Both the position numbers and the translations under genes were made by a program. From contig CALWDW010000008.1 of assembly GCA_944376795.1 (NCBI GenBank), positions 1 to 64,000 of the forward strand: DNA of 64,000 bases. Reading direction: 5' to 3'. The DNA comes from an uncultured Christensenellaceae bacterium (GTDB lineage Bacteria > Bacillota > Clostridia > Christensenellales > UMGS416). Below are positions 2,535 through 64,000 of the stretch, piece by piece; the first letter of the stretch is position 1; every line of letters begins with the position of its first letter. The notes beneath the pieces are model-generated. The model saw only the letters and a list, made by a program, of their open reading frames with translations, was not told the origin of the DNA and did not search any database.

Positions 2535-2584
2535 ACCGTATATCCTCCCTTTCCCGGGACGCTGGGGGTCCCAAACCGCACCCT

Positions 2585-2613
2585 AGTATAGTCCGGCCTG
2601 CCTGCCCTGGCAA
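2585..2613 (-). promoter_or_regulatory. Promoter of MFS transporter gene
   Basis: Minus strand TTGCCA (2613-2608), 17-bp spacer, TATACT (2590-2585). Confidence 0.7.
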
Positions 2614-2628
2614 GAGATGAAACAAAGA

Positions 2629-2685
2629 TTGAGTTTTGGTCAGAATCATGGTATGTTTTTGGAGAATGGTTCAATTATTCTGAAC
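2629..2685 (+). promoter_or_regulatory. Promoter and possible autoregulatory operator of the DeoR gene
   Basis: TTGAGT (2629-2634), 17-bp spacer, TATGTT (2652-2657). Downstream, GTTCA (2669-2673) and TGAAC (2681-2685) form an inverted repeat; TCAGAA (2640) and TTCTGA (2678) form a second nested pair. Position between promoter and start fits repression by the DeoR protein. Confidence 0.5.
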
Positions 2686-2698
2686 ATGGAGGGATTCG

Positions 2699-3475: not shown

Positions 3476-3547
3476 GGGGCACCCGGCGCCTTTCCGGGAT
3501 TTTTGGCGTTTTCTGTGACGCAAACCTGGGATCTTTTGACGGGAAGG

Positions 3548-48758: not shown

Positions 48759-50297
48759 ATGAAGTACATTGTAGTAGACAATACGGAGTGGACCTATCCT
48801 GACTTGGATTTTGCCAGCTACCCCACCGGGGCGTTGGAACTGCAGGCGGATACGCCGCGGAATACCTCGGTGGGCTTCCAGGTGCTGCTGAGAGAGGTGC
48901 CGGAAGATGCCGCCCCGGCCATTGCCCTGGAGGGTGTGGATGGAGAGGTTTTGGAGCTCGTCCCCGTCTATGTGGAAGGGAATCCCGGCCTGACCCCGGA
49001 GAATGCCCTGCCCCATTTCCCGGAGCGATGGGGGCCCTACTGGATCTATGACTGCGTCCGCACCCGGGGGGAGCGGCTCCATCCCAAGGACGGCGTAGCC
49101 GGCCTGTATGTCCTGGTGCGGATCCCCGCCGGCGCCGCCGTGGGGCGCCTTGAAGGGACACTGCGGGTGGGGGAGCTGTCCATCCCGATTCGGCTGCAGG
49201 TTCACCGCGCCGTGGTGCCGGATGAAACCCAGCTGAAGTTTATCAATGGCTACAATCGCCGCTGTGTGGCCCAGTTCCATCACCTGGATCCGGAATCCCC
49301 GGCCTTTGACGCCATGGATACGGCGTATCTGACCATGCTGCGCCGGATGCATCAGAACATGCTGTATGCCCCGGCGGCCGCGGTAACCGAGCTGGGGGAC
49401 AATCGCTACGCTTTTGACTTTGCGCCGCTGGAGGCCTTTATCAACAAGACCTGGAACCTGGGCTTCCGTTACTACAACCTGGGTGGGATCGGCGGGCGCC
49501 GCAGTTGGAAGGAGTCTACCATTCTGGTACACGGCATGCCGGCCATGGGCTATGAGGCCTACCGCTATATGGCCCAGTATCTCCCGGCGCTGCAGGACTT
49601 CCTGGAGCGGCACGGGTGGCTGGAGCACTGCTATCTGGGCATTGCCGACGAGCCCAATGAGGCCAATGCCACCGAATTCCGGGCCCTGGCGGGGATTGTG
49701 CGCAAGCTGGCGCCCCGGATCAAGCTCCAGGACGCCATGAGCTACGGCCCGATCCACGGCGCTTTGGACGTGTGGATCCCTCTCAATTCTGAATACCAGG
49801 AGCATCGGGAGCAGATTGAGACCTTCCGGGAAGGCGGGGACGAGATCTGGCACTATGTCTGCTGCGGCCCGCGGCTGCACGGCTACATCAACCGCTTCAT
49901 GGATATCCCCCTGCTGGCCACCCGGTATCTCTTCTGGGGGAACTATGCCTATGACCTGAAGGGCTACCTCCACTGGGCGGCCAACAGCTACCAGCCCGGA
50001 CAGGATCCCTTCCTGCAGAACAATCCTGAGCATCACAATGCCGACAGCATGACCATCCTCCCGCCCGGGGATACCCACCTGATCTATCCCGGGGAGGACG
50101 GCCCCTGGATGAGCCTGCGGCTGGAGGCCCAGCGGGAGAGCGCAGAGGACTATGAGCTGCTGACCATGCTGGCCCGGAAGGACCGGGCGGCAGCCGACGC
50201 CCTGTGCGCCCAATGCTTCACCTCCTTCAACCAGGTAGAGTACGACCCCAACCGGTTCAAGGCGGTTCGGACGCAGCTGCTGGAGGCTTTGGACTGA
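48759..50297 (+). CDS. DUF4091 glycoside-hydrolase-like protein
   Basis: 512 aa from ATG at 48759 (AAAGGAG, 12-base spacing). The N-terminal about 160 residues are beta-rich; the rest is a TIM-barrel-like domain with HCYLGIADEPNEANA and VWIPLNSEYQEH that match the DUF4091 family and its glycosidase-like acidic residue (the Asp-Glu in IADEP). No signal peptide, so cytoplasmic. Specificity is unknown. It is convergent with GH29, separated by a good terminator. Confidence 0.85.
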   Translation: MKYIVVDNTEWTYPDLDFASYPTGALELQADTPRNTSVGFQVLLREVPEDAAPAIALEGVDGEVLELVPVYVEGNPGLTPENALPHFPERWGPYWIYDCVRTRGERLHPKDGVAGLYVLVRIPAGAAVGRLEGTLRVGELSIPIRLQVHRAVVPDETQLKFINGYNRRCVAQFHHLDPESPAFDAMDTAYLTMLRRMHQNMLYAPAAAVTELGDNRYAFDFAPLEAFINKTWNLGFRYYNLGGIGGRRSWKESTILVHGMPAMGYEAYRYMAQYLPALQDFLERHGWLEHCYLGIADEPNEANATEFRALAGIVRKLAPRIKLQDAMSYGPIHGALDVWIPLNSEYQEHREQIETFREGGDEIWHYVCCGPRLHGYINRFMDIPLLATRYLFWGNYAYDLKGYLHWAANSYQPGQDPFLQNNPEHHNADSMTILPPGDTHLIYPGEDGPWMSLRLEAQRESAEDYELLTMLARKDRAAADALCAQCFTSFNQVEYDPNRFKAVRTQLLEALD

Positions 50298-50319
50298 TTT
50301 ACAGCCCGTTGGCATAAGG

Positions 50320-50358
50320 AAAGACCGGACGAAGCATCTCTTCGTCCGGTCTTTCTAT
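50320..50358 (+). terminator. Terminator of DUF4091 gene
   Basis: 14-bp stem (50320-50333/50341-50354), loop GCATCTC, then CTATG; the stem itself ends in TTT. Confidence 0.85.
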
Positions 50359-50439
50359 GTTTAAAACGGTAAGCCCCCTTGGAAGGCAGAAAGCCCATTC
50401 AGGCCACTGCTTTTTGGAAGGCGGGGCTGGGTCTAGGAG

Positions 50440-51402
50440 CTATCCCCGGCCTACAGCCCGGAAAATGTCTGCGGCGGGGCCCGGAATACGGCCCAGGGCG
50501 TCAGGTCCCACGTTCAGCAGGTAATTGAGGCCCCGGTCGTTGAGATGCCGCTTGATCTCCAGCACGCGCCGGGCATCCTTCCAGTTGTTGTCATAGCTCT
50601 TGTAGCCCCAGGTGTCGTTGAGGGTGCAGGCCGACTCATAGAGGCCTTCGCCCATGGCGTCCTCGGGGATTTCGTTGTCGCCCATGGACTGGTAGTCTCC
50701 CAATCCGTTGCCCACCCGGGAATTGACCAGGCAGTCCGGCTGGTAGTGGTGCACCATGTCCACCAGCTCCCGGCTCTGGGCGGGGGAGATGGTCTGGGGG
50801 GTGTCGAACCAGATCAGGCACAGGGGACCGTAGCCGGTGAGAAGCTCCTGTACCTGGGGCTTAATCTTGGACTCGTAGCAGCGGGTATAGTCCTTGGCCG
50901 CGTTGTCGGGGAAGTCCCAGTCGTTGGTCCAGACCCCGGCCCCGTCGCACCAGGTGCGCCCGGCGGTATAGCCGCCGCCATCGGGCTCACTCCAGTCCAG
51001 GTCCTGAGAATAGTATAGGCCCAGCTTCATGCCGTGGCGCGCACAGGCTCCGGCCAGTTCCTCCAGGACATCCCGCTTGAAAGGGGTGGCGTCCACGATA
51101 TTGAAGGGGCTGACCCGGGAGCGGTACATGGCGAAGCCCTCATGATGCTTGGCGGTGATGACAATGTAGCGCATGCCGGCGTCCTGGGCCAGCCGGACCC
51201 AGGCGTCCGCATCGAAGAGAAGCGGATGGAAGGCCTGGGCCAAGGGATGGTATTCCCGGTTGGGAATGCGGAAATAGGCCTGGAGCCATTCGCCGATGTA
51301 GGGCATGCGCTTCCCCTTCCATTCCCCGGCGGGCAGGCAGTACAGGCCCCAATGGATCATCATGCCAAACTTTGCCTCACGGAACCAAGCTTTGCTGTCC
51401 AC
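50440..51402 (-). CDS. GH29 alpha-L-fucosidase, catalytic domain only
   Basis: 320 aa from GTG at 51402 (AAAGGAGGACAACC). Only the GH29 TIM barrel is present; the usual C-terminal beta domain of about 100 residues is missing, but the frame ends cleanly. Family sequences: KFGMMIHWGLY, VITAKHHEGFAM (His triad) and LIWFD with nucleophile Asp200; the acid/base is not clear. It lacks a signal peptide. Promoter at 51448-51476 is on the same strand. Confidence 0.92.
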   Translation of the reverse strand: MDSKAWFREAKFGMMIHWGLYCLPAGEWKGKRMPYIGEWLQAYFRIPNREYHPLAQAFHPLLFDADAWVRLAQDAGMRYIVITAKHHEGFAMYRSRVSPFNIVDATPFKRDVLEELAGACARHGMKLGLYYSQDLDWSEPDGGGYTAGRTWCDGAGVWTNDWDFPDNAAKDYTRCYESKIKPQVQELLTGYGPLCLIWFDTPQTISPAQSRELVDMVHHYQPDCLVNSRVGNGLGDYQSMGDNEIPEDAMGEGLYESACTLNDTWGYKSYDNNWKDARRVLEIKRHLNDRGLNYLLNVGPDALGRIPGPAADIFRAVGRG

Positions 51403-51447
51403 AGGTTGTCCTCCTTTTGACGGCGTATTGCGCCGCGTCTGCTGGGA

Positions 51448-51476
51448 AGAGTATACGGGAATTTTCCCGGCTGCGC
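51448..51476 (-). promoter_or_regulatory. Promoter of GH29 gene with palindrome in spacer
   Basis: Minus strand TTGCGC, 17-bp spacer, TATACT (about 51476-51448). The spacer carries CGGGAA-AA-TTCCCG, a likely operator. From 51477 to 51715 there is no credible gene. Confidence 0.65.
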
Positions 51477-51719
51477 AAGGGGCTCATGCGCATTGCGGTC
51501 TGCCCCAAAACCTGGGGACGCACGCCGCTGCAAGAAAGATTGCGTATACCGGGAACCCCTGCGAGGAATGGGGACGAAAGCTTTGCGGCAGATTCTTTCC
51601 CCCAAAGCCCGTCGTTTCTTACGCAGGCAGTCCAAGGCGGGCCCTTACCGTTTTTCCTGAAAAGCTTCCGGAAGGTTCCCTCTCCCCCGCAGAAGGCGGG
51701 ACATCTTCCTGAGAACAAA

Positions 51720-51756
51720 TAGAAAAGGCCCGCGCACCATAACCGAACGCGGGCCC
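51720..51756 (-). terminator. Terminator of feo operon
   Basis: Minus strand GGCCCGCG/CGCGGGCC (51755-51748/51734-51727) followed by TTTTCTATTT. Confidence 0.85.
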
Positions 51757-51764
51757 AGGGGGAA

Positions 51765-51941
51765 TTAGGGCTGCTTATGGCACATGCCGGAGCAGGCGCA
51801 CTGGCCGCAGCTGCCGCCGCAGGCGCAGGCGGCCCCCTTTTTGCGTGCGCGGCGCAGGGAGAGGAAGGCCGCGATCACGGCGGCGGCCAATAGCGCGCTT
51901 ACCAGAATCGTTCCCCAGTTTTCTGTAAGAAAGTCCAACAT
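51765..51941 (-). CDS. FeoB-associated Cys-rich membrane protein
   Basis: 58 aa from ATG at 51941 behind AGGAGGC. It starts LDFLTENWGTILVSALL with one membrane helix, then RRARKKG, and a tail CACGGSCGQCACSGMC of six cysteines. This is the family found next to feoB, thought to pass or sense iron at the membrane. It ends the feo operon, 14 bp after the feoB stop. Confidence 0.93.
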   Translation of the reverse strand: MLDFLTENWGTILVSALLAAAVIAAFLSLRRARKKGAACACGGSCGQCACSGMCHKQP

Positions 51942-51955
51942 GAGGAAGCCTCCTT

Positions 51956-54367
51956 TTAGATGGTAACCTTAGCCCGCAGGGAAGTGCTTTCCTTGTAAGG
52001 GCGGAAGAGAAGATACAGGATCAGGCCCAGCACGGCCAGCGCCGCGATGGCCCCCGCTACGCTGCCGCTGCCGGAGAAAAGAGAGCCTAGCTGGTAAAGG
52101 ATCAGAGAGGCTGCGTAGGCGAATACGCACTGGTAGCCGATGGCAAACACGGTCCACTTGGCGTTGTTCATTTCCCGCTTGATGGCGCCCATGGCGGCAA
52201 AGCAGGGGGCGCAGAGCAGGTTGAACACCAGGAAGGAGTAGGCGGCCAAGGGCGTATAGACGGCGCGCATATTGGCCCAGATCTGCCAGCCGTTTTCGGC
52301 TACTTCGTCAAAACCGCCGTAGAGTATGCCGAAGGTATTGACCACGTTTTCTTTGGCGATGAGGCCGGTGATGGAGGCCACGGCGCTCTGCCAATCTCCC
52401 CAGCCCAGGGGCGCGAAGAGCCAGGCAATGGCGCTGCCGATGGCGGCCAGGATGGAGTTATTGAGATCCTTCACCATGCCGAAGCTGCCGTTTTCCACAC
52501 CGAAGCCCTGAAGGAACCAAAGCACGATGGCCGAGAGCAGGATGATGGTGCCGGCCTTCCGGATGAAGGACCAGCCGCGTTCCCACATGGAGCGGAGCAC
52601 ATTGCCCAGGGTGGGCCAGTGGTAGGCGGGAAGCTCCATGACGAAGGGAGCGGGATCCCCGGCGAAGATCCGGGTCTTTTTCAGCATGATGCCCGAGACC
52701 ACAATGGCGAGAATGCCCACGAAGTAAGCGCTGGGGGCCACCCACCAGGCTCCTCCAAACAGCGCGCCGGAGATCAGGGCGATGATGGGGAGCTTGGCGC
52801 CGCAGGGGATGAAGGTGGTGGTCATGATGGTCATGCGCCGGTCCCGTTCGTTCTCAATGGTGCGGGAGGCCATGATGCCGGGGATGCCGCAGCCGGTGCC
52901 GATAAGCATGGGGATAAAGGACTTGCCTGACAGGCCGAATTTCCGGAAGACACGGTCCATCACAAAGGCGACGCGGGCCATATAGCCGCAGCTCTCCAGG
53001 AAGGCCAGGAAGAGGAAGAGCACCAGCATCTGGGGCACAAAGCCCAGCACCGCGCCGACGCCGCCCACGATGCCGTCCAGGATCAGCCCTTCCAGCCAGG
53101 GCGCACAGCCGATGGCCGTCAGGACATTGCCCACCAGCACCGGAATGCCGGGGACCCACCAGCCAAAGGCAGCAGGATCGGGTTCCTCGATGGCGGCGGC
53201 CTCTTGGTAGGCGGCGAAATCCACCGGGAGCTCTTCGGTGACGTTGCCGTTATCGTCATAGAACACGGCGGTGGCCGTCAGATCGCTGGCCTCCGCGGGA
53301 TCGATGCCGGCCTCTTCGGCCGCGCTCTCGAAGGCTTCCACCATGGCGCCGGGGACGGCATAGGCCTCGGCCGCCTCTTCGTAGGCGGCCGAACCCACCC
53401 CAAAGAGCCGCCAGCCCTCGCCGAAGACGCCGTCATTGGCCCAGTCGGTGGCCCAGGTGCCCACCGTGGTCACCGAAACATAGTAGACGATGAACATGAC
53501 GGCGGCGAAGATGGGCAGCGCCAGGAAGCGGTTGGTGACCACCCGGTCGATTTTGTCGGAGATCGAGAGCTTTCCGGCGTTCCGCTTCTTATAGGCGCTC
53601 TTGAGCACCGAGGCGATGTAGACGTATCGCTCGTTGGTGATGATGCTCTCCGCATCGTCGTCCAGCTCCTTTTCGGCGGCCTGGATATCCTGCTCGATGT
53701 GGGCCATGGTTCCGGCGGGGATTTTCAGGCTTTGGAGCACCCGCTCGTCCCGCTCGAAGATCTTGGTGGCGTACCAGCGCTGTTGTTCGGCGGGGTAGTC
53801 GTGGAGGACCGCCTCCTCGATGTGGGCGATGGCGTGCTCGACCGGGCCGCTGAAACGGTGCATGGGTACGGCCTTATCTTCTATGGCGGCCTGGATGGCG
53901 GTTTCGGCCGCTTCGGTGACGCCGGTCCCCTTTAGGGCGGAAATCTCTACCACCTTGCAGCCCAGCTGACGGGACAGCTCTTCGGTGCGGATGGTGTCGC
54001 CGGATTTCTTGACCACGTCCATCATGTTGATGGCTACCACCACGGGGATCCCCAGCTCGGTCAGCTGGGTGGTTAGGTAGAGGTTGCGCTCCAGATTGGA
54101 GCCGTCCACAATATTGAGGATGGCGTTAGGCCGCTGGTTCATCAAGTAGTCCCGAGCTACTACCTCCTCCAGGGTGTAGGGAGACAGGGAATAGATGCCG
54201 GGCAGGTCGGTGATGACCACGTCGCTGTGCCGCTTCAGCCGTCCCTCCTTTTTCTCTACGGTGACCCCCGGCCAGTTGCCCACAAACTGATTAGAGCCGG
54301 TGAGGGCGTTAAACAGGGTGGTTTTGCCGCTGTTTGGATTCCCCGCTAGGGCAATGCGAATCTCCAT
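51956..54367 (-). CDS. feoB: Ferrous iron transporter FeoB
   Basis: 803 aa. N-terminal G protein: G1 GNPNSGKT (9-16), G3 DLPG (54-57), G4 NMMD (114-117). Residues about 280-803 form the membrane pore with GTGCGIPGIMASRTI and the second gate region APCFAAMGAIK. It imports Fe(II) driven by GTP-linked gating. A large soluble insertion of about 110 residues rich in Ala and Glu (about 318-400) follows the first helix. The operon order is feoA, feoA, feoB, Cys-rich protein. Confidence 0.97.
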   Translation of the reverse strand: MEIRIALAGNPNSGKTTLFNALTGSNQFVGNWPGVTVEKKEGRLKRHSDVVITDLPGIYSLSPYTLEEVVARDYLMNQRPNAILNIVDGSNLERNLYLTTQLTELGIPVVVAINMMDVVKKSGDTIRTEELSRQLGCKVVEISALKGTGVTEAAETAIQAAIEDKAVPMHRFSGPVEHAIAHIEEAVLHDYPAEQQRWYATKIFERDERVLQSLKIPAGTMAHIEQDIQAAEKELDDDAESIITNERYVYIASVLKSAYKKRNAGKLSISDKIDRVVTNRFLALPIFAAVMFIVYYVSVTTVGTWATDWANDGVFGEGWRLFGVGSAAYEEAAEAYAVPGAMVEAFESAAEEAGIDPAEASDLTATAVFYDDNGNVTEELPVDFAAYQEAAAIEEPDPAAFGWWVPGIPVLVGNVLTAIGCAPWLEGLILDGIVGGVGAVLGFVPQMLVLFLFLAFLESCGYMARVAFVMDRVFRKFGLSGKSFIPMLIGTGCGIPGIMASRTIENERDRRMTIMTTTFIPCGAKLPIIALISGALFGGAWWVAPSAYFVGILAIVVSGIMLKKTRIFAGDPAPFVMELPAYHWPTLGNVLRSMWERGWSFIRKAGTIILLSAIVLWFLQGFGVENGSFGMVKDLNNSILAAIGSAIAWLFAPLGWGDWQSAVASITGLIAKENVVNTFGILYGGFDEVAENGWQIWANMRAVYTPLAAYSFLVFNLLCAPCFAAMGAIKREMNNAKWTVFAIGYQCVFAYAASLILYQLGSLFSGSGSVAGAIAALAVLGLILYLLFRPYKESTSLRAKVTI

Positions 54368-54425
54368 ACCTCTTTCTCTCCTCCTGCAATTAGCTGAAAC
54401 TAACTTATTGACATGATTGAATGGG

Positions 54426-54647
54426 CTATGCGACCTCGATTTGGCCGGCGTCGGCCTTGCGGATGGAGAGCTCGTACCCCCGCACGGTGATCTCCACCGG
54501 GTCCCCCAGAGGGGCTACCTTGCGAACGTAGATCTCCACCCCCCGGGTGATCCCCATGTCCATGATCCGACGCTTTACGGCTCCTTCGCCGTGGAGCTTG
54601 ACGACGGTGACGGTTTCGCCCACCTTGACCTGCCGCAGTGTTTTCAT
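54426..54647 (-). CDS. feoA: FeoA domain protein (second copy)
   Basis: 73 aa from ATG at 54647. SH3-like FeoA fold: KTLRQVKVGETVTVVKLHGEGAVKRRIMDMGITRGVEI. It is the one adjacent to feoB, 58 bp before it. FeoA binds FeoB and aids uptake. Confidence 0.92.
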   Translation of the reverse strand: MKTLRQVKVGETVTVVKLHGEGAVKRRIMDMGITRGVEIYVRKVAPLGDPVEITVRGYELSIRKADAGQIEVA

Positions 54648-54668
54648 GCTTGCGCCTCCTTTGACACC

Positions 54669-54878
54669 CTATACCATGATTTTGCTGGCCATTTCCCGGC
54701 TGATGGCCACCCGGGTCCCCTTGACCTGGACGATGAGATTGCCCCCCATGGAGGCCACCACCGTGACGCTGCCTCCGGGCACAAACCCCAAATCCTCCAA
54801 ATGGCCGCGGATCTGGGGATTCCCCCCAACTCTGCGGATCTGATTTTCCTCTCCCGCGTTGGCAAATGTTAACGGCAT
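54669..54878 (-). CDS. FeoA domain protein (first copy)
   Basis: 69 aa. MPLTFANAGEENQIRRVGGN then HLEDLGFVPGGSVTVVASMGGNLIVQVKGTRVAIS fits a diverged FeoA. It opens the feo operon just behind the iron-box promoter; 21 bp separate it from the second feoA. Confidence 0.9.
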   Translation of the reverse strand: MPLTFANAGEENQIRRVGGNPQIRGHLEDLGFVPGGSVTVVASMGGNLIVQVKGTRVAISREMASKIMV

Positions 54879-54926
54879 TCCCCTTATTCCTTTCTGCCGA
54901 CGGCACGCGCCGGCCCCATTCCCTGA

Positions 54927-54979
54927 GGTTAGTCTTATCTAACCGATAGTATGTTAGCATAGACTAACCTTGATGTCAA
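54927..54979 (-). promoter_or_regulatory. feo promoter with two DtxR-type boxes
   Basis: Minus strand TTGACA (54979-54974), 17 bp, TAACAT (54956-54951). Boxes: GTTAG-N6-CTAAC (54953-54968) covering the spacer and -10, and GGTTAG-N6-CTAACC (54927-54944). The TTAG...CTAA arms resemble DtxR/IdeR iron boxes; centres are 25 bp apart. Confidence 0.8.
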
Positions 54980-54983
54980 GAAG

Positions 54984-55007
54984 AAATTTCCGTTCCAACG
55001 GAAATTT
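54984..55007 (-). terminator. Hairpin after the AraC gene at 55016
   Basis: AAATTTCCGTT (54984-54994) and AACGGAAATTT (54997-55007) are perfect arms with a 2-base loop. The U-run after it on the minus strand is poor (CTTCTT), so it may be a terminator or a shared dyad next to the feo -35. Confidence 0.45.
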
Positions 55008-55015
55008 TCCTTCGG

Positions 55016-55939
55016 TCAAAGAGCCGGGGGCGGCACGGGCGGCGCGGCAAAGGAATCTCCCTGGCGCTGGCCCTGCCGGTAGGCCGAGGGGGTCATGGCC
55101 ATAATGGACAGGAACTCCCGATTGAAGTAGCTGATGCTGTTAAAGCCGCACTCCGAAGCAATGGTCCCGATCTTGGCGTCGGAGTGGGCCAGGCGCATGC
55201 AGCTCTGCATCACCCGGAAGCGGCGGATATAGCCAAAGGGGGTGTCCCCGGTGAGCTGCTTGAAGCTGCGGCAGAACTGCCGGGGACTTAAATGGGCCGT
55301 TTGGGCCAGGGCGGCCAGGGTCATGTCCGAAGCAAAATGATCCCGAATGTAGCGCAGGGTGGGCTCCAGCTGTCGTTCCAGCCGGTTCTTGGCGTGGGCG
55401 CCTTGGATTGCCGCAATGTGACCGGCATAGAGGCGCTGCCAGAGCAGCAGCGTGAGGCCGCAGACCGCCAGCTCCTTCTCGGGAGCTTCCTCTTCTGCGG
55501 TGCGGAAAATGACGTCCAGGCAGGCCAGAATATCCCGTTCCCAAGGCTTCCCGTGGGAGAGTACGCAGATGTAGTCCCGGTTATGCTCCAGCACGGGAGC
55601 CAGGCACCGGGCGATTTGCCCGGCGTCCATGGCGCCGGCCAGGAAGTCCGCCGAGAAGACCAGGGCCCGGAAGCAGCCGCCTTCCTCCCCGGCGCAGCGG
55701 GCCGTGTGCAGAAGATTGGGGGGAATAAAGACCGCTTCTCCTGGACGCAGGGGCAGCTTACGATCCTCAATAACCAGTTCCAGGCAGCCTTCCGCCATGT
55801 AGAGGAACTCCATCTCGGGATGCCAGTGGAGGTACAGCGCAGGGGCGGCATGGGGGGAGAAAAAACTCTCGTGGACCGCATAGGGCCGGGTCCGGGTGAT
55901 GTGGGGCACGGGTTCGAACAGCTCCTGTTTATTGGGCAT
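55016..55939 (-). CDS. AraC family transcriptional regulator
   Basis: 307 aa from ATG at 55939 behind GGAGG; the in-frame ATG at 55981 lies in the promoter. Cupin N-domain (HWHPEMEFLYMAEGCLEL, RPGEAVFIPPNLLHT) and C-terminal AraC double HTH (SDMTLAALAQTAHLSPRQFCRSFKQLTGDTPFGYI ... IASECGFNSISYFNREF). Divergent from the GH31 gene, so it probably activates that gene on a sugar ligand. Candidate operator 55982-55994. Confidence 0.94.
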   Translation of the reverse strand: MPNKQELFEPVPHITRTRPYAVHESFFSPHAAPALYLHWHPEMEFLYMAEGCLELVIEDRKLPLRPGEAVFIPPNLLHTARCAGEEGGCFRALVFSADFLAGAMDAGQIARCLAPVLEHNRDYICVLSHGKPWERDILACLDVIFRTAEEEAPEKELAVCGLTLLLWQRLYAGHIAAIQGAHAKNRLERQLEPTLRYIRDHFASDMTLAALAQTAHLSPRQFCRSFKQLTGDTPFGYIRRFRVMQSCMRLAHSDAKIGTIASECGFNSISYFNREFLSIMAMTPSAYRQGQRQGDSFAAPPVPPPAL

Positions 55940-55981
55940 GGATAACCTCCAATGCGGAAGATGATGGCCATATTGTATCAT

Positions 55982-55994
55982 AAATCGTCGATTT
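55982..55994. promoter_or_regulatory. 13-bp palindrome between AraC and GH31 genes
   Basis: AAATCG-T-CGATTT lies between the AraC and GH31 starts, overlapping the AraC-side promoter spacer (TACAAT -10 near 55970 on the minus strand). Confidence 0.5.
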
Positions 55995-56095
55995 TGTGGA
56001 AGATATTTGCCACCGCTTGGGGTAGAGTAGTCTCCATAGGATCAAAAGATGAGCGAAGGACGCTTCGCTTGCCAAACCCAAAGGAGGATGCTTTC

Positions 56096-58093
56096 ATGGG
56101 ATTTTTTGAAAAGCGGGACAATTGCCTCATTTTTCGGGAGAACGGCGAGACGGTGCAGCTGACGCCCTGGGGAGAGGACAGCCTGCGGGTGCAGGCGGCC
56201 ATTCTGTCGGACATCGATCCGGCCTGCGCGGCGCTGCTTCCCCAGCCTCCCCGGGAGGCGGAGATTACCATCGGGGAATGGGAGGCCAGCATCCGCAACG
56301 GGAAGCTTCGGGCCGACCTGCGGGTAGAGCCCTGGGGACGGGCGCTGCAGATCACCTACCGCAACGAGAAGGGCGAGGTGCTGCTGCGGGAGATCTCCAA
56401 TGGCGGAGCCTTGGCGCTGAAGGCACGCAAGTTCAAGCCCCTGCCCGGCGGGGCCTTCCAGCTGAAAGTGAGCTTCGAGGCCAGCCCGGGGGAGAAGATC
56501 TACGGCATGGGGCAGTACCAGCAGGAGCGGATGGACCTGAAGGGCTGCAATCTGGAGCTGGCGCACCGGAATTCCCAGGCCAGCGTGCCCTTCTACATTT
56601 CCAGCCTGGGCTACGGTTTCCTGTGGCACAATCCGGCCATCGGCGAGGTGCATTTCGGCGCCAATACCACCCAGTGGGAGGCGGTCGCCACCCGGCAGAT
56701 GGATTACTGGATCACCGCCGGGGACACTCCCGCCCAGATTGAGGCCCACTATGCCCAGGCTACGGGCACCGCGCCGGAAATGCCCGAATATGGGCTGGGC
56801 TTCTGGCAGTGCAAGCTGCGCTACTACAACCAGGAGCAGGTGCTCTCCATCGCCCGGGAGTATAAGAAGCGGAACATTCCGGTGGATGTGCTGATTATCG
56901 ACTACTACCACTGGCCCCGGTGCGGGGACTGGCGATTTGACCCGGAGTACTTCCCGGACCCCGCCGCCATGATCCGGGAGCTGCGGGAGATGGGCATTCA
57001 CGCCATGGTCTCCATCTGGCCCCAGGTGGATACCCGCAGCGAGAACTATGAGGAGATGAAGCAGCAGGGGCTGCTGGTCAAGAGCAACGCCGGCGTGGAC
57101 GTGCAGATGCTCTTCCATGGGAACAACGTGTTCATGGACGCCACCAATCCCCGCACCCGGGCCTATGTCTGGCAGAAGTGCAAGCAGAACTATGCCGATC
57201 TGGGGATTGAGACATTCTGGCTGGACGAGGCGGAGCCGGAGTATGGCACCTATGACTTCGACAGCTACCGCTATCATGCCGGCCCGGTGGCCGAGGTGGG
57301 GAATATCTATCCCCGGGAATATGCCCGACTCTTCTATGAGGGGCTCAAGGAAATGGGACAGGGGCCGGTGGTCAATCTGCTGCGCTGCGCCTGGGTAGGC
57401 AGCCAGCGGTACGGTGCGCTGGTCTGGTCGGGGGACATCATGTCCAACTATGAGGACTTCCGTAAGCAGATCTGTGCGGGCATCCACATGGGCCTGAGCG
57501 GCATTCCCTGGTGGACCACCGATATCGGCGGATTCCATGCCGGGGAGACCGCCAATCCGGACTTCCGGGAGCTGCTGGTGCGCTGGTTCCAGTTCGGCGC
57601 CTTCTGCCCGGTGATGCGTCTCCACGGCAGCCGGGTGCCCCACACCCCCATTGTCAACGCCGCGGGGGAGGTACGGGAGCAGACCGGTGCGGACAACGAG
57701 GTCTGGAGCTTTGGCGAGGAGGCCTATCCCATTTTGGTGAAGTTCATTGGCATCCGGGAGCGGATGCGGGACTACACCCGGGAACTGATGCGCCAGGCCC
57801 ACGAGCAGGGGCATCCGCTGATGCGGGCGCTGTTCTACGAGTTCCCCGACGATCCCGCCTGCTGGGATGTGACCGACGCCTATATGTTCGGCCCAGATAT
57901 CCTGGTGGCGCCCGTCTGTCACAAGGGGGCCCGCGCCCGGGAGATCTACCTGCCTGCCGGAGCTTCCTGGACCCATGCGGGCACCGGGAAGGTTTATGAG
58001 GGAGGAGCCACCTATACCGTGGAGGCGCCGCTGGATACCCTGCCCATCTTCCTCCGGGATGGACGGCAGGACTACCTGGTGGGGATGATCTAA
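56096..58093 (+). CDS. GH31 alpha-glycosidase, alpha-xylosidase/glucosidase type
   Basis: 665 aa from ATG at 56096 (AAAGGAGG). Beta-sandwich N-domain, then a TIM barrel with nucleophile Asp377 (FWLDEAEPE) and acid/base Asp447 (LVWSGDIMS), followed by beta domains. KIYGMGQYQQERM and DVLIIDYYHWPRCGDWRFDPEYFPDP are typical. No signal peptide. YicI-type alpha-xylosidases and alpha-glucosidases both fit; sequence alone does not choose. Divergent AraC regulates it; a long hairpin terminator follows (58298-58345). Confidence 0.95.
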   Translation: MGFFEKRDNCLIFRENGETVQLTPWGEDSLRVQAAILSDIDPACAALLPQPPREAEITIGEWEASIRNGKLRADLRVEPWGRALQITYRNEKGEVLLREISNGGALALKARKFKPLPGGAFQLKVSFEASPGEKIYGMGQYQQERMDLKGCNLELAHRNSQASVPFYISSLGYGFLWHNPAIGEVHFGANTTQWEAVATRQMDYWITAGDTPAQIEAHYAQATGTAPEMPEYGLGFWQCKLRYYNQEQVLSIAREYKKRNIPVDVLIIDYYHWPRCGDWRFDPEYFPDPAAMIRELREMGIHAMVSIWPQVDTRSENYEEMKQQGLLVKSNAGVDVQMLFHGNNVFMDATNPRTRAYVWQKCKQNYADLGIETFWLDEAEPEYGTYDFDSYRYHAGPVAEVGNIYPREYARLFYEGLKEMGQGPVVNLLRCAWVGSQRYGALVWSGDIMSNYEDFRKQICAGIHMGLSGIPWWTTDIGGFHAGETANPDFRELLVRWFQFGAFCPVMRLHGSRVPHTPIVNAAGEVREQTGADNEVWSFGEEAYPILVKFIGIRERMRDYTRELMRQAHEQGHPLMRALFYEFPDDPACWDVTDAYMFGPDILVAPVCHKGARAREIYLPAGASWTHAGTGKVYEGGATYTVEAPLDTLPIFLRDGRQDYLVGMI

Positions 58094-58142
58094 GCATATT
58101 GGCCGCGCTTGGGGCCCTCTGATGCGGCGGCTGCGCGGCTCT

Positions 58143-58187
58143 TTGGGGGAGGGAAACCTTTTGGGAGGGTTTCCCTCCCCCAAACCC
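58143..58187. repeat. Distant copy of the GGGGGAGGGAAACC palindrome
   Basis: The element found in 17275-18308 recurs here as one palindrome (arms of about 18 bp with loop TTTTGGGA). It is about 40 kb from the cluster. Confidence 0.8.
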
Positions 58188-58297
58188 TTTTCTTGTGAAA
58201 GCTGGAGCACGGGCCTTTTGCCCGGAGGTTTTTTCCGCAGCCTAGGACCCCCAAGGGGGTTCCCCGGGCGCTGCGGAGGGGCTGGGCAGACATACGA

Positions 58298-58345
58298 GAC
58301 GCTGCGCAGAGCGCCTTATCAGGCGGCTCTGCGCAGCGTCTTTCT
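58298..58345 (+). terminator. Long hairpin terminator after GH31
   Basis: Arms AGACGCTGCGCAGAGC (58298-58313) and its complement form about 20 bp with one bulge; TTTCTGCTCTC follows. Confidence 0.85.
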
Positions 58346-58386
58346 GCTCTCTGTCCGAATTCAATTGTCTAAAGAATACGGGATGC

Positions 58387-58947
58387 TCAGGCGTCCCTTT
58401 GCGGCGGGAGCCGGTATTCCTGCACCACACCGCCGTCCAGATCCTTCCAGAGGAAGCCGCCGTTCTCGTAGATCATGTAGCCGTGGACGCTGTTCTCCTT
58501 GGGAATGGAGACCGACCCGGGATTCAGGTATAGATAGTTTTCGTGCTGCACATATCCCGGCACGTGGGTGTGACCGTGCAGTAGAATATCTCCCGGCTGC
58601 AGGGGAGGCAGGTGGGCCTCGTTGTACTGGTGCCCATGGGTGGCATAGACCATGCGTCCCCCGATATAGAGAATGCAGGTATCCGAAAGGATGGGGAATT
58701 CCAGCAGCATTTGGTCCACCTCGGCGTCGCAGTTCCCCCGGATGCAGAGGAGCTTGGCCTTGGCGGCGTTGAGCATGGCGGCCACCTGCTGGGGATCATA
58801 GTCCTGGGGGAGGGCATTGCGGGGGCCGTGGTAGAGGATGTCTCCCAGGAGGAGGAGCTTATCGGCCCCTTCGGCCCGGAGCCTGTCCAGCATCTGGCGG
58901 GTATAGAGAGCCGAACCGTGGAGGTCGGACGCGATCATGAGCTTCAT
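58387..58947 (-). CDS. yfcE: YfcE-type phosphodiesterase (metallophosphoesterase)
   Basis: 186 aa. Dimetal motifs: ASDLHGS, LLGDILYHG, GNCD, THGHQYN and HGHTHVPG all present with metal-binding Asp and His residues. NPGSVSIPKE ends the fold, as in YfcE. It hydrolyses phosphodiesters in vitro; cellular role unclear. Promoter at 58995-59023 has TATAAT (59000-58995). Confidence 0.95.
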   Translation of the reverse strand: MKLMIASDLHGSALYTRQMLDRLRAEGADKLLLLGDILYHGPRNALPQDYDPQQVAAMLNAAKAKLLCIRGNCDAEVDQMLLEFPILSDTCILYIGGRMVYATHGHQYNEAHLPPLQPGDILLHGHTHVPGYVQHENYLYLNPGSVSIPKENSVHGYMIYENGGFLWKDLDGGVVQEYRLPPQRDA

Positions 58948-58994
58948 GGCAGTGCTTCCTTTCTTTGTGGAATCCGGCGGCGCCGGACAGGGTC

Positions 58995-59023
58995 ATTATA
59001 CCATGAAACGCCAGGTTTGGGAA
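58995..59023 (-). promoter_or_regulatory. Promoter of yfcE
   Basis: Minus strand TTCCCA (59023-59018), 17 bp, TATAAT (59000-58995). Confidence 0.7.
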
Positions 59024-59034
59024 AGGACGGCGCG

Positions 59035-59595
59035 TCAGTGGGCGGGAAGGCAGGGAATATCCGTTTCCGCGGCGGCCAAAGCTTCGTCCAGGTCCATGCC
59101 GCCCTGCAGCCAGAGCTGATGCAAAGACGGGGCGAGCAGCAGCGGAAGCTGGAGCTGTCCCGGCGCTTCCCGGGTCAGGATGACGAAGCAGGGAGTGGGC
59201 TGGCCGCGTTCGATGCGATAGATTCCGGCCATATACAGCGGACGGCCATGGGGATGGCAGAGGATCCGGCGCGTTTTGCGGGCGCTGGGATCCTCCCAGA
59301 TGCAGCAACGGCTGGCGGGGAGAAGGCAGCGGCTTTCGGCCAGCGGCCGGCGGAACATAGGACGCTGGCAGGCGGTTTCTCCGCGGGCGCAGAGAATGAG
59401 TCCCGATACGTCATAACGGTGGAAGCCCCAGCGCAGAACCCGGGGCCTGTCTGCCAGGGCGGGCGCGGCTTGGGCGGGACGGATGTCTTCCAGCGGCACA
59501 AGAGGAAGCCGTCGGGCATCCGGCCCTGCGGCGATATCCCGGAAAAGCTCCCGGAACAGGGGGTGTTGGACGTCGATGGAGTATTTTTCCACCAT
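59035..59595 (-). CDS. Degenerate SRAP (YedK/HMCES)-like protein
   Basis: 186 aa from the second ATG at 59595, whose spacing to AAAGGAGG is normal (first ATG 59601 is too close). The centre reads VLRWGFHRYDVSGLILCARGETACQRPMFRRPLAESRCLLPASRC, which follows the SRAP pattern WGl.P..-NARaET-F-RCL-PA; but the invariant Cys2 that crosslinks abasic DNA is absent (MVEKYS), GFYEW is replaced by RCCIWE, and the HxRMP region by LQLPLLLAPS. So it likely lost abasic-site crosslinking and may have a new role, or be a decaying copy. No partner gene is obvious. Confidence 0.7.
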   Translation of the reverse strand: MVEKYSIDVQHPLFRELFRDIAAGPDARRLPLVPLEDIRPAQAAPALADRPRVLRWGFHRYDVSGLILCARGETACQRPMFRRPLAESRCLLPASRCCIWEDPSARKTRRILCHPHGRPLYMAGIYRIERGQPTPCFVILTREAPGQLQLPLLLAPSLHQLWLQGGMDLDEALAAAETDIPCLPAH

Positions 59596-59701
59596 AAACA
59601 TCCCTCCTTTCCCGCCTAGTATGCCGCAAAAGCGGCGGCGTCAGCCTCTGCCGTGGGCATCGGAAAGGAAGGGAAATGCTGGAATCCGGGGCCGGTACAG
59701 G

Positions 59702-60151
59702 TTAAGACGCGGGGCACAGGGCAGCAAAGAAGCTCCGGGCCCGGTCCAAGTCGGCCTGGCTGGGGAGCCCCTTGCCGCTGCCGCCCACCCAGCGGAAGGG
59801 GCCGAAGGTATTGTACCCCCGGCAGCCGAATTCGCCCAGCAGGATTGCGTCCTTTTCCGCCGCAGCCTTGGCGATGGCTTTGGCGCCGCTGCCCTTGGCT
59901 CCGCCATAGGTATAGACAAAGAAGACGCGTTTTCCCCGGGGGAGACGCCGCCGGGCAAAGTCGATCACCGACGGATGGAAGGAAAAACCGTAAATGCCGG
60001 AAGCAAAGCCGATGAGATCGTAAGCCTCCAGGGAGGCGTCGGGTTGGGCGGCAATGTCAATGAGGTCCACGTCTCGGCCCTGGGCCATGGCCTGGACCAC
60101 CTTTCGGGTATTCCCATGGTGATACGAAAAGTAACAGATGGCAGTTTTCAA
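59702..60151 (-). CDS. Flavodoxin-like protein
   Basis: 149 aa. FMN loop YFSYHHGNTRKV near the start (phosphate-binding), YDLIGFASGIYGFSFHPSV (flavodoxin-like loop) and FFVYTYGGAKG. Likely an NAD(P)H-dependent or electron-carrier flavodoxin. It overlaps the SDR gene by 4 bases and belongs to its operon. Confidence 0.9.
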   Translation of the reverse strand: MKTAICYFSYHHGNTRKVVQAMAQGRDVDLIDIAAQPDASLEAYDLIGFASGIYGFSFHPSVIDFARRRLPRGKRVFFVYTYGGAKGSGAKAIAKAAAEKDAILLGEFGCRGYNTFGPFRWVGGSGKGLPSQADLDRARSFFAALCPAS

Positions 60152-60864
60152 ATCGATTCCTCCTCCTGCAGCGTCCAGCCAAAGTCGTTGTGGTAAATCA
60201 TCTGCCGGGTCATGCCGCCGTCAATGCAAATATTCTCGCCCGTGATGAAACCGGCCTGCTCCGAGGCCAGGAAGAGGGCCATATGGGCGATATCCATGGG
60301 GTTTCCTACGCGGCCGGCCGGGTGCTGGGCGGCGTCCGGGCCCTCATACTGGGTATAGGCCGTGTCAATCCAGCCGGGAGAGATGGAATTGACCCGGGCG
60401 CGCCCTGCCAGCGTGACTGCCAGGGCGTGGGTCAACGCGGCAATGCCGCCCTTGGCGGCGGTGTAGCTCTCGGTCTGCGGCTGGCTCATCCGGTCCCGGG
60501 AGGAGGAGATGAGCAGGATGGACGCGCCGGGCGCCAGATAGGGGGTCAAGAGCTTGGTCAGATAGAAGGGCGCCGTGACCCCCACCCGCAGCGCTTCATT
60601 GAACTCCTCATACGTACAGGTATCCAGGCCCTTGGACAAGGGCGGGGCATTGTGCACCAATACGTCCACCCTTCCATAGGCGGTGATGATTTTCTCCGCA
60701 AAGGCCTCCAGCGCCGCCTTGTTCCCTACGTCCCCTGTGAAGAAATCGTTGGGCTGCCTGTCGATGATACAGACCTGCGCCCCGGTCCGGCGAAATTCGT
60801 CGGCGATGGCTTTCCCAATGCCCTGTGCGCCGCCGGTAATGACGGCGACCCGGTCCTGCAGCAT
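60148..60864 (-). CDS. Short-chain dehydrogenase/reductase (SDR)
   Basis: 238 aa from ATG at 60864 (AGGAGGGAA), not the longer start at 60924 which falls in the promoter. Cofactor motif ITGGAQGIGKAI, NAP region VHNAPP, catalytic Ser-Tyr-Lys in LLISSSRDRM...SYTAAKGG, and PGWIDT. So a classical SDR using NAD(P). Substrate unknown; co-translated with the flavodoxin gene. Confidence 0.94.
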   Translation of the reverse strand: MLQDRVAVITGGAQGIGKAIADEFRRTGAQVCIIDRQPNDFFTGDVGNKAALEAFAEKIITAYGRVDVLVHNAPPLSKGLDTCTYEEFNEALRVGVTAPFYLTKLLTPYLAPGASILLISSSRDRMSQPQTESYTAAKGGIAALTHALAVTLAGRARVNSISPGWIDTAYTQYEGPDAAQHPAGRVGNPMDIAHMALFLASEQAGFITGENICIDGGMTRQMIYHNDFGWTLQEEESI

Positions 60865-60922
60865 AGCATTCCCTCCTGACGGCGCGGCGCCCTTCTGATG
60901 GGGAGCCGCGTTTCTTTCTTTC

Positions 60923-60952
60923 ATTGTACCACGGAACGAAGGACGCTGCCAA
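60923..60952 (-). promoter_or_regulatory. Promoter of SDR-flavodoxin operon
   Basis: Minus strand TTGGCA (60952-60947), 18 bp, TACAAT (60928-60923). Confidence 0.7.
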
Positions 60953-60971
60953 CCGGTCTGGGAAAAGGGGC

Positions 60972-61000
60972 TTGATTATTCCAAAATGACGGTTTACTAT
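60972..61000 (+). promoter_or_regulatory. Possible promoter of MATE gene
   Basis: TTGATT (60972-60977), 17 bp, TACTAT (60995-61000); leader of about 115 bases before the ATG at 61121. Confidence 0.5.
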
Positions 61001-61120
61001 ATTAACATAGGTTCTTTACATGGGAGATGGCATGCGTACAACCGGAACCGATCCGTCTGTCTCCAACGGGGCGGGCCGCGGCATGGCGGACGCAGGAAGC
61101 GCGAGGGAAAGGAGTTATCT

Positions 61121-62509
61121 ATGGAGAAAACCGCGTGGAAAGAATACCTGGGGGATCGGGAATTTTATAGTACCATTTTGAAAATCGCCATTCCGATTTC
61201 GTTGCAGCAGCTTATTACGGTGGGCATCAATCTAATGGATACCGTGATGCTGAGCAGCATGGGAGATATCCAGCTTTCGGCGTCCTCTCTGGCGGGGCAG
61301 TTTATCAACCTGTTTCAGATCTGCTGTATGGGCATCGGCATGGGGGCGTCCGTGCTGACCGCCCGCTACTGGGGCATGCAGGACCGGGATGGCTTGCGCA
61401 AATCCATTACCATCATGCTGCGGCTTTGCCTGGCCTTCAGCACGGTGTTTACGCTGGCGACGTTGGTCAGCCCCGGACTGATCATGCAGATCTATACCTC
61501 CGATCCGGATACCGTGCGGCATGGGGTTACCTACCTGCAGTGGCTTCTGCCTACGTACTACTGTATGGGCCTTTCCCTTACCTGTACCATTGTGCTGCGC
61601 AGTGTGGGACAGGTGAAGCTTCCGCTGCTCAGCTCCATTTTGGCGTTCTTTATCAATATTTTCTTCAACTGGGTCTTCATCTTTGGCAGGTTGGGCGCTC
61701 CAAGAATGGAGATTGCCGGGGCGGCGCTGGGAACTTTGATTGCCCGGGTATTTGAACTGGTGTTTATCTGCGGCTACTTTTTCTTTCGGGACGAACGGAT
61801 TGGATACCGGCTGCGCATGCTCTTTATGCGCTGTGGGGACCTGGTGCGGGAATACCTGCGGATCAGCATCCCCGTACTGATCAGCGACGGGCTGCTGGCC
61901 CTGGGCAATAACTCTGTTGCCATGATTATGGGGCGGATCGGAACCACCTTTGTGGCAGCTAACTCGGTAACCATGGTGGTACAGCAGCTCAGCTCGGTGC
62001 TGACCCAGGGAGTATCCAATGCCAGTGGCATCATGACCGGACACACCATGGGCCGTGGCGAGTACGATAAAGCGCAGAAGCAGGGCTATACTTTCCTGGG
62101 CCTTGGATTTTTGGTGGGCTGCCTGGCGGCCCTGGTGATCCTACTGCTGCGGGGACCGATTATCAACTATTATCAGGTGACCGCCGAGGCGAAGGCCATC
62201 GCCTGGGAACTTATGGACGCCATCAGCTTTATCGTCATTTTCCAGGCGATGAATTCCATCCTTACCAAGGGCGTGCTCCGGGCTGGAGGCGATACCAAGT
62301 TCCTGATGATGGGGGATATTTTATTCCTATGGGTGGCTTCCATCCCGTTGGGGGCGCTGGCCGGCCTGGTGCTGCATTGGCCCTCCTTCTGGATCTATAC
62401 CATGCTGAAGATCGACCAAATCATCAAGTGCGTTTGGTGTTACTTCCGGCTGCGGAGCCGGAAATGGATGAAGAAGATCTCCTCGACGGCAGATCTGGAA
62501 GGCCGTTAA
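61121..62509 (+). CDS. MATE family efflux transporter
   Basis: 462 aa from ATG at 61121 (AAAGGAG). Twelve helices; ISLQQLITVGINLMDTVMLSSMGDIQLSASSLAGQF and NALGN-type repeats VSNASGIMTGHTMGRG fit NorM/DinF-like MATE proteins. It exports drugs or cations with Na or proton exchange. The ASCH-domain gene begins 12 bp downstream. Confidence 0.94.
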   Translation: MEKTAWKEYLGDREFYSTILKIAIPISLQQLITVGINLMDTVMLSSMGDIQLSASSLAGQFINLFQICCMGIGMGASVLTARYWGMQDRDGLRKSITIMLRLCLAFSTVFTLATLVSPGLIMQIYTSDPDTVRHGVTYLQWLLPTYYCMGLSLTCTIVLRSVGQVKLPLLSSILAFFINIFFNWVFIFGRLGAPRMEIAGAALGTLIARVFELVFICGYFFFRDERIGYRLRMLFMRCGDLVREYLRISIPVLISDGLLALGNNSVAMIMGRIGTTFVAANSVTMVVQQLSSVLTQGVSNASGIMTGHTMGRGEYDKAQKQGYTFLGLGFLVGCLAALVILLLRGPIINYYQVTAEAKAIAWELMDAISFIVIFQAMNSILTKGVLRAGGDTKFLMMGDILFLWVASIPLGALAGLVLHWPSFWIYTMLKIDQIIKCVWCYFRLRSRKWMKKISSTADLEGR

Positions 62510-62521
62510 GGGGGGCGTATC

Positions 62522-63019
62522 ATGGATCGGGCACAGCTTCTGATACGGCTTATGGAACATGTCCAGTCGACGGGTCATCCCTATTGGAAAGGCCGGCTGG
62601 CCGCTCTGCCTCCCGGCCGGATCCATGCGGCCATCCTGGTGGAGCCCTATTGTTCCAGGATCTTATCAGGGGAAAAGACCATGGAATCCCGGTTTTCTGT
62701 GAAAAGGGTCTCTCCATGGCATCGTATTGTCCCGGGGGACGCGGTGTTTCTCAAGCGGTCGGGAGGGGAATTTGTGGGAATCTTTGAGGCGGGAGAAGTG
62801 CGGTTCCGCCAGCTCCGCTCGGCGTCTGACTGGTTGGAGATCCAAGGCGCCTTTGGAGAGCAGCTCTGTGTGGAGGATGACTTCTGGGAGAGAAAAAGGG
62901 ACAGCCGGTATGCCACGCTGATCGCTATCTCCCGGCTGCTGATCTTGGAACCTTTCTCGATACGCTTTGCCAACCGCCAGTCCTGGATTGACTTCGGGGC
63001 GCCGCCGGGGGAGCATTGA
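62522..63019 (+). CDS. ASCH domain protein
   Basis: 165 aa. HAAILVEPYCSRILSGEKTMESRFSVKRVSPWHRIVPGDAVFLKR matches the ASCH (PUA-like) fold, including the GxKxxExR motif (GEKTMESRF). ASCH proteins act on or bind RNA or nucleosides. It is close behind the MATE gene and likely on one transcript; no link is clear. A terminator follows at 63078-63110. Confidence 0.85.
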   Translation: MDRAQLLIRLMEHVQSTGHPYWKGRLAALPPGRIHAAILVEPYCSRILSGEKTMESRFSVKRVSPWHRIVPGDAVFLKRSGGEFVGIFEAGEVRFRQLRSASDWLEIQGAFGEQLCVEDDFWERKRDSRYATLIAISRLLILEPFSIRFANRQSWIDFGAPPGEH

Positions 63020-63077
63020 CAGGGGGAAGGGGACAAAAGACCGTGGAGAACCGGGCCGGGTTTTAATTCGCATAGGA

Positions 63078-63110
63078 AAAGGGGGGCGGAAGCCTCCCTT
63101 TCTTTCTCTC
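63078..63110 (+). terminator. Terminator after ASCH gene
   Basis: 10-bp stem (63078-63087/63092-63101, one G-U), GGAA loop and a T/C-rich tail. Confidence 0.7.
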
Positions 63111-63243
63111 GCTATATTCCGCTCAAATTGTGCGGAACGCTCGGCTTGCATGAAAACCACTGGGGTTTCGGTGGGTTTCCCCAATGTGTGTTTCTTAAAG
63201 CCGTAGGAAATAGGCTTTTCTGCGGTTTCGGATAAGGTGGTTT

Positions 63244-64000
63244 TTACTTCAGTTCAACCGGAATCCATACTTCATAGTATCTTTTTTCTTTTCGCCTATC
63301 ACGGTCTGTCCATAGATGCAGCACTTCGATTGCAAGGTCATATTTGTGCCTATACTCTGATGCGGGAAGCCAGGAATCAAAAATCAACTCGAACAGCTTC
63401 GGGAACTCTTCCCAAGCAAGTCCGCCGCACGCGGTTTTGAATGCCGCGTAAGTACCGGCAGGAAGTTTGCGCATCTCAAGCTCATCCGTCTTGGTATCGG
63501 ATCGCCTGCGGGCAATCATATATTTGCCATCCTGCCATATTCCGTACCATACGCCATCATAGGATGTGCTCCCGGGCTGATTCCATCGGCCCTCACAGAG
63601 CTGACCGGGAACGTCATGGCAATTTTCGGCCCACATAGCGTGGCGTAGTTCCTCGCGGTTTTTGTAGTCCATGTCCTCGTACTGCTTTGATACACCGTAC
63701 ACATCGGTGCCTTCGAACTCGATGATTCTGAAATCCATTTCTTTTGCTCCTTTGATCATAATGTGAAAGGAAGCAGGTGGATATACCTTGAGAGAACCGC
63801 CGTTTTTTCGGTAGGCCGACGGTGTAACGCCATGCTGTTTCGCAAAGGCTCTTGAGAAAGCTGCCGCACTGCTATACGCGTATTTCGTAGCAATGTCCAC
63901 GATTGGTGCCTTGCTGTGCTGCAGATCCTGCGCTGCGAGAGTCAGGCGTCTGCGTCTTACATATTCGGTCAATGTCATACCGGTCATATAACTGAAAAAC
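63244..64000 (-). CDS. AraC-type HTH plus GyrI-like effector domain, N-terminus outside window
   Basis: Partial, more than 250 aa. The C-terminal part of an AraC HTH (SYMTGMTLTEYVRRRRL ... IATKYAYSSAAAFSRAFAKQHGVTPSAYR) is followed by a GyrI-like/bacterial effector-binding domain (FRIIEFEGTDVYGVSKQYEDM ... YYEVWIPVELK). This layout is that of Rob/TipAS-type drug-responsive regulators. The open frame runs off position 64000. Its GC is visibly lower than its neighbours', suggesting recent transfer. It probably controls an efflux or stress gene beyond the edge. Confidence 0.85.
   Translation of the reverse strand, partial: FFSYMTGMTLTEYVRRRRLTLAAQDLQHSKAPIVDIATKYAYSSAAAFSRAFAKQHGVTPSAYRKNGGSLKVYPPASFHIMIKGAKEMDFRIIEFEGTDVYGVSKQYEDMDYKNREELRHAMWAENCHDVPGQLCEGRWNQPGSTSYDGVWYGIWQDGKYMIARRRSDTKTDELEMRKLPAGTYAAFKTACGGLAWEEFPKLFELIFDSWLPASEYRHKYDLAIEVLHLWTDRDRRKEKRYYEVWIPVELK

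Follow-up and report, generated by a model that had tools for sequence, protein, structure and literature searches.

The window analysed here, a stretch of 64,000 nucleotides, carries on its minus strand an ORF (59035-59601) that is open over 186 codons, with no stop or frameshift, and encodes an SRAP-fold protein whose catalytic residues are lost (59035..59595, minus strand; 186 aa from the ATG at 59595, or 188 aa from an alternative ATG at 59601). The ribosome-binding sequence AAAGGAGG (59603..59610, minus strand) lies 7 nt 5' of the ATG at 59595 and only 1 nt 5' of that at 59601, and the protein begun at 59595 aligns without gaps with MCGRYFIEEDDPL and MCGRYYIDAEDQE of its two nearest relatives, its N-terminus reading MVEKYSID where theirs read MCGRYFIE and MCGRYYID; the spacing and the gap-free alignment make 59595 the better start. 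Between the ORF and the upstream stop, the 13 in-frame codons include no ATG, GTG or TTG. Nor do MCGR, GFYEW-like or HxRMP strings occur in either of the two remaining frames of the minus strand. An upstream start or a frameshift that restores the MC motif, the outcome that would have undone the original prediction, is thereby ruled out, and, given also the ribosome site and the N-terminal alignment, residue 2 is truly Val and the coordinates and start first proposed are right. Codon adaptation is 0.618 in the SRAP frame, compared with 0.386-0.542 in the other five frames, with a mean of 0.667 (sd 0.074) over 30 long ORFs of the window delimited by a crude caller, and with the higher values of its three neighbours (0.673-0.692). 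The antisense ORF at 58612-59619 on the plus strand was rejected as a gene; among the compared neighbourhoods it resembles only mirror ORFs, and ORFs of this kind were taken as mirrors of other SRAP and YfcE genes.

Upstream of the SRAP gene lies a gene for a flavodoxin-domain protein (59702..60151, minus strand), which overlaps an SDR gene (60148-60924) by 4 bases, and downstream lies a gene for a YfcE-type phosphodiesterase (58387..58947, minus strand). The interval from the flavodoxin-domain gene to the SRAP gene showed neither a promoter-like nor a terminator-like site, and it is possible that the two genes share one transcript. Directly after the SRAP stop, a promoter-like site (TTCCCA-17-TATAAT, 59023-58995, minus strand) fits separate transcription of the YfcE gene; the stretch scanned for such sites has three promoter-like ones, against a mean of 0.9 in shuffled sequence, and no terminator-like sites. 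The neighbours (YfcE, flavodoxin and SDR) include no adjoining repair, translesion polymerase or other SOS gene. They are of an ordinary kind, the window has no tRNA gene, and 50000-64000 gave no match to Rfam, so that no sign of mobile origin was seen. Relatives of the YfcE or flavodoxin genes are absent beside the other SRAP genes compared, except at one locus (L076), where the second SRAP of G054 has a YfcE homologue at a distance of about 2.8 kb. Weak SDR-type matches (27-41%) lie 1.3-2.4 kb from SRAP genes in L083, L086, L092 and L133, MATE-type matches (21-30%) occur in L074, L096, L106 and L112, adjoining the SRAP gene in L096 and L112, and AraC-type matches occur near SRAP genes in L099, L100 and L103; because these are large families, nothing was drawn from such matches.

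The protein matched the Pfam family PF02586 with 48.9 bits (cut-off 27.1; 7.8e-13), over profile positions 55-187 of 214, so that the N-terminal part is unscored, and its nearest NCBIfam model scored far under the cut-off (24.9 against 349). In a phmmer search, the rows at 4.6e-5 to 1.5e-4 were 2f20 and six of YedK, the next four rows being unrelated (0.23 to 0.85). The AlphaFold2 model has a mean pLDDT of 95.7 and a pTM of 0.91, its input alignment being 42 relatives drawn from the best 80 of at least 431 contig relatives; the model shows that the sequence suits the SRAP fold, which is not proof of stability, as the canonical relatives in the alignment help the fold. At E <= 0.001, Foldseek returned 17 matches to the model, comprising 13 to YedK or HMCES, those to 2f20 (two chains) and 2bdv, which we take to be SRAP structures, and one to 1zn6. 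The last is named as an SRAP in PMC3765255. VIA-align listed 15 entries, with Z of 16.4-18.5 and aligned lengths of 165-182 residues, the first aligned residues being 2 and 2 in all of them except 2icu; for the listed entries of E. coli YedK and the human HMCES SRAP domain, which have the same fold, Z was 17.3-17.9 over 165-181 residues. The protein, which passes the PF02586 cut-off and has a BB1717-like fold in the model, is thus an SRAP by descent and fold, as proposed from its fold motifs, and the suggested comparison of a predicted structure with YedK bears this out.

YedK uses Cys2 to form its crosslink to abasic (AP) sites; Glu105 and His160 act as acid-base catalysts, and Asn75 lies close by. 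Of these, Glu105 is second in importance to Cys2, and the effect of N75A is mild (PMC9436759). The window SRAP lacks all of these residues. Codon 2 (59590..59592) encodes Val instead of the Cys2 that forms the crosslink, codon 69 (59389..59391) puts Cys at the position of Asn75 (YedK numbering), and codon 99 (59299..59301) has Ile for Glu105, within a box whose sequence is RCCIW, compared with WYYEW and RYFEW in the sisters; at codons 147-150 (59146..59157; all on the minus strand), a 5-residue deletion removes His160 and leaves QLP of the HDRMP-type motif. In YedK numbering, the changes are C2V, G3E, R4K, N75C, E105I, deletion of H160, R162Q and M163L, and the residues kept are P40, the W of WGF, R77, E79, T80, W106, T149 and P164. 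The original prediction had listed as altered Cys2, the box GFYEW and the histidine region of the RMP motif, and each of them is. According to PMC9436759, the C2A mutant of YedK retains Schiff-base and lyase activity that depends on Glu105, and the lyase of the C2A E105Q double mutant is 25-fold slower than that of C2A. By analogy with this biochemistry, it follows that the window SRAP would form no thiazolidine DNA-protein crosslink, since it has no Cys2 thiol, and that the ring-opening, Schiff-base and lyase steps should be crippled as well, since Glu105 and His160 are gone; the claim that the protein cannot crosslink abasic DNA is thus supported by the YedK mutants. The Cys, His and Glu earlier proposed as an autoprotease triad of SRAP (PMC3765255) are also lost.

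To place these losses, the window SRAP was aligned with 155 other ORFs, 144 full-length and 11 shorter pieces. Among the full-length ORFs, Cys2 is present in 143 of 144 (V in one), Asn75 in 142 (H in one, Q in one), Glu105 in all 144 and His160 in 143 (Q in one); all four residues occur together in 140 of 144, and the remaining four ORFs lack one each and none lacks more. The window SRAP is therefore the only full-length row with more than one catalytic residue missing, and it has lost all four. The search patterns used for the contig relatives required an [EI]W box or a [YM][ML]AG stretch, and because that set leans to canonical boxes the whole-genome loci were counted separately; the 74 full-length rows found there with no choice by motif gave C in 74, N in 72, E in 74 and H in 73. 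Trimming of the rows sought an MC-type start, which biases these counts towards finding Cys2, and the aligned rows are related rather than independent. Over all 155 rows the Cys2 column holds C in 148, V in one, T in one and a gap in five, but two of these Cys are stray letters of fragments (second pieces of L153 and L045), and the full-length counts are preferred. The single row with V at this position (L119) is without any MCGR segment.

The two nearest relatives, L048 and L004, are 42% and 41% identical to the window SRAP over residues 3-185 (41% and 40% in another alignment); judging from the removal of identical rows, they appear to be the same ORFs as L079, from an uncultured Clostridia bacterium, and L080, from an uncultured Christensenella species. 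Their N-termini align with that of the window SRAP without a gap, and both, unlike it, keep the full MCGRY, INAR, YEW/FEW and HxRMP motifs. In a quick tree the three form a clade with an SH-aLRT of 100; the end branch of the window SRAP, a row marked as unusual in composition and length, measures 1.54, and those of the sisters 0.44 and 0.36. Counting for each protein only the sites at which the remaining two agree, changes number 51 of 109 in the window SRAP, 17 of 75 in L004 and 15 of 73 in L048. Longer branches occur in the same tree, such as those of L014 (3.15) and of the second SRAP of the host genome (2.81).

Matches to the window protein were found in four of the eight genomes of the family and in 74 of the 396 of the order, its own genome counted, and every match from the 396 order genomes was aligned. 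A second search of genome contigs confirmed at least 431 relatives, of which the best 80 were kept; those named among these 80 include Christensenella, Pullichristensenella and many other Clostridia, and the host is probably a bacterium of this sort. Pattern scans detected no SRAP sharing the altered pocket in genome contigs and none sharing the altered motif in viral contigs; phages gave 3 and plasmids 60 distant records, both sets outside the alignment, and searches queried with the window protein miss remote SRAPs. None of the 155 other aligned ORFs has the altered motif, the genus being represented by one genome in the data, so that nearer kin are invisible. A conserved altered-motif subfamily, which the original prediction had proposed to look for, thus finds no support among the relatives examined, of which the two nearest are canonical and 143 of 144 full-length ORFs keep Cys2; the retention of Cys2 by the homologues, an outcome that the original prediction had named as refuting, tells against a subfamily, and the observation of the altered gene itself stands. 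Because no relative examined shares the losses, the gene gives the impression of an isolated pseudoenzyme and not of a new family.

The host genome, a draft of 62 contigs estimated to be 95% complete, so that a further SRAP could be missed, encodes a second SRAP (L001, 1435-2037, minus strand; contig C17 of G000) that matches the family with 88.8 bits. In contrast to the window SRAP, it keeps Cys2, Glu105 and His160; Asn75 is replaced by His and Trp106 by Arg, and its branch is long. It adjoins a Y-family polymerase, with a 91-aa ORF in between (SRAP, 91-aa ORF and polymerase at 1435-2037, 2016-2291 and 2308-3504, all on the minus strand), and SRAP genes are known to occur in operons with DinB (PMC3765255). 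The 91-aa ORF has no Pfam match; our guess is that it is an ImuB-C domain.

Of 27 alignment columns at least 90% conserved among 114 full-length relatives, 19 are kept in the window SRAP, and the eight lost are the four catalytic columns together with R4, G36, R162 and M163; outside the catalytic four, 19 of 23 conserved positions are thus retained. At sites where the sisters agree, the numbers kept, from the most to the least conserved class, are 19/27, 9/16, 11/18 and 19/48. By hand arithmetic, the chance that all four catalytic columns fall among 8 lost of 27 is 70/17550, or 0.004. We then simulated neutral evolution from each sister gene by point mutations only (His160 was in fact lost by deletion) and scored as the target pattern no stop, all four catalytic sites changed and at most 4 of the 23 other conserved sites changed; none of the 11 ages tried produced this pattern in more than 8 of 20,000 runs. 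Of 2,000 genes simulated to 20 neutral amino-acid changes, 39% had no stop, and the chance of having none fell to 0.044 at 60 changes (2,000 runs). The kept scaffold, the open frame and the rarity of the pattern under neutrality argue that the folded SRAP stayed under selection after its chemistry had been lost. The simulation may also be compatible with a recent relaxation that followed such selection.

We consider it probable, without great assurance, that the window gene is a second chromosomal SRAP turned pseudoenzyme, folded and serving a non-covalent role. The protein would still be made and used, in the simplest case as a weak binder of single-stranded or junction DNA that uses the leftover groove (Pro40, the Trp of WGF, Arg77 and Thr149, residues that presumably line the SRAP DNA groove). 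Alternatively, it might act on the other SRAP of the host, either as its partner or in competition with it; the protection of AP sites might be left to that other copy, beside its Y-family polymerase. A new binding role, as the original prediction suggested, may go with such a protein; the sequence itself shows a preserved scaffold whose pocket is dismantled. Against the pseudoenzyme reading, the altered pocket is common to no relative examined, hence no conservation of the state is seen, and the fast branch also fits relaxed selection, although several other SRAP branches are longer; the codon adaptation below that of the three neighbours and the lack of an adjoining repair gene count against it as well. 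The main rival, less likely yet a serious contender, is a relic heading to a pseudogene, its function lost and its ORF open by chance. An active site wholly gone, the fast branch, the occurrence in one genome only, a codon adaptation below that of the neighbours and the presence in the same genome of another SRAP with Cys2, Glu105 and His160 are all in keeping with such a relic, and after a short recent decay of 20 amino-acid changes an open frame is common enough in the simulation. A longer decay agrees poorly with 186 codons that hold neither stop nor frameshift, the stop-free chance being so low at 60 changes; purely neutral runs hardly ever kept the scaffold while the catalytic sites went, and the ribosome site is good.

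Three further explanations concern the pocket and the gene model. The window SRAP has 8 Cys, compared with a mean of 3.3 (sd 1.2, maximum 7) in the 114 full-length relatives, none of which reaches 8, and three of those gained lie at the pocket, Cys69 at the position of Asn75 and Cys97 and Cys98 immediately preceding the missing Glu105; a pocket re-tooled as a metal or redox site, or as support for other chemistry on the SRAP fold, would account for them, but the excess was noticed post hoc and the cysteines are common to no relative, and we regard this as quite improbable. A somewhat broader possibility, itself improbable, is that the SRAP fold has been re-used without chemistry, the pocket with three new cysteines and no HxR loop binding another ligand (a metal, an altered base or a partner protein), in which case the protein would read damaged single-stranded DNA instead of crosslinking it. 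An initiator Met followed by Val is usually removed, and the Val amine at the N-terminus could then give Schiff-base or lyase chemistry, making the protein an AP-site enzyme by another route. The activities kept by YedK C2A speak for this, but that chemistry needs Glu105 (both from PMC9436759), which here is Ile, and His160 is gone as well, so that such a route is very improbable. Finally, the draft state of the 62-contig genome invites the thought of a mis-called start, a frameshift or an assembly error; with losses at four places within one unbroken frame, and no alternative minus-strand frame or start that restores a motif, the probability of an artefact is close to negligible.

If the pseudoenzyme reading is adopted, a precedent lies among SOS paralogues that are inactive, SulA/ImuA of RecA and ImuB of UmuC, which are non-catalytic paralogues of repair enzymes; unlike the window SRAP, seen once, they are described across many bacteria (PMC3765255). 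Among the matches listed by searches of the open-licence PMC literature, we saw no SRAP described as catalytically dead and, in a search by residue names, no structural paper on YedK. A natural SRAP with the four catalytic residues gone and the scaffold mostly kept is a ready-made control for functions of the fold that need no crosslinking, namely the binding of DNA junctions and of protein partners, although a single-genome case defines no system by itself.

Some irregular SRAP genes were also observed among the relatives. The N-termini of L119 and of L038, a shorter piece with MCGRY in another frame just upstream, together with L212, L045 and L153, present N-termini that are missing or frame-broken, or internal breaks, and these represent either decay or assembly errors. 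In addition, two species of one genus (g37) encode divergent SRAPs with an MCER/MCEQ start, L014 (G037) and the ORF at 7903 on the plus strand of L181 (G097), which keep Cys2 and Glu105 and have a changed NAR motif (NVW and QVE), L014 also having Gln for His160; as a divergent group of paralogues, they may prove more informative than the window gene.
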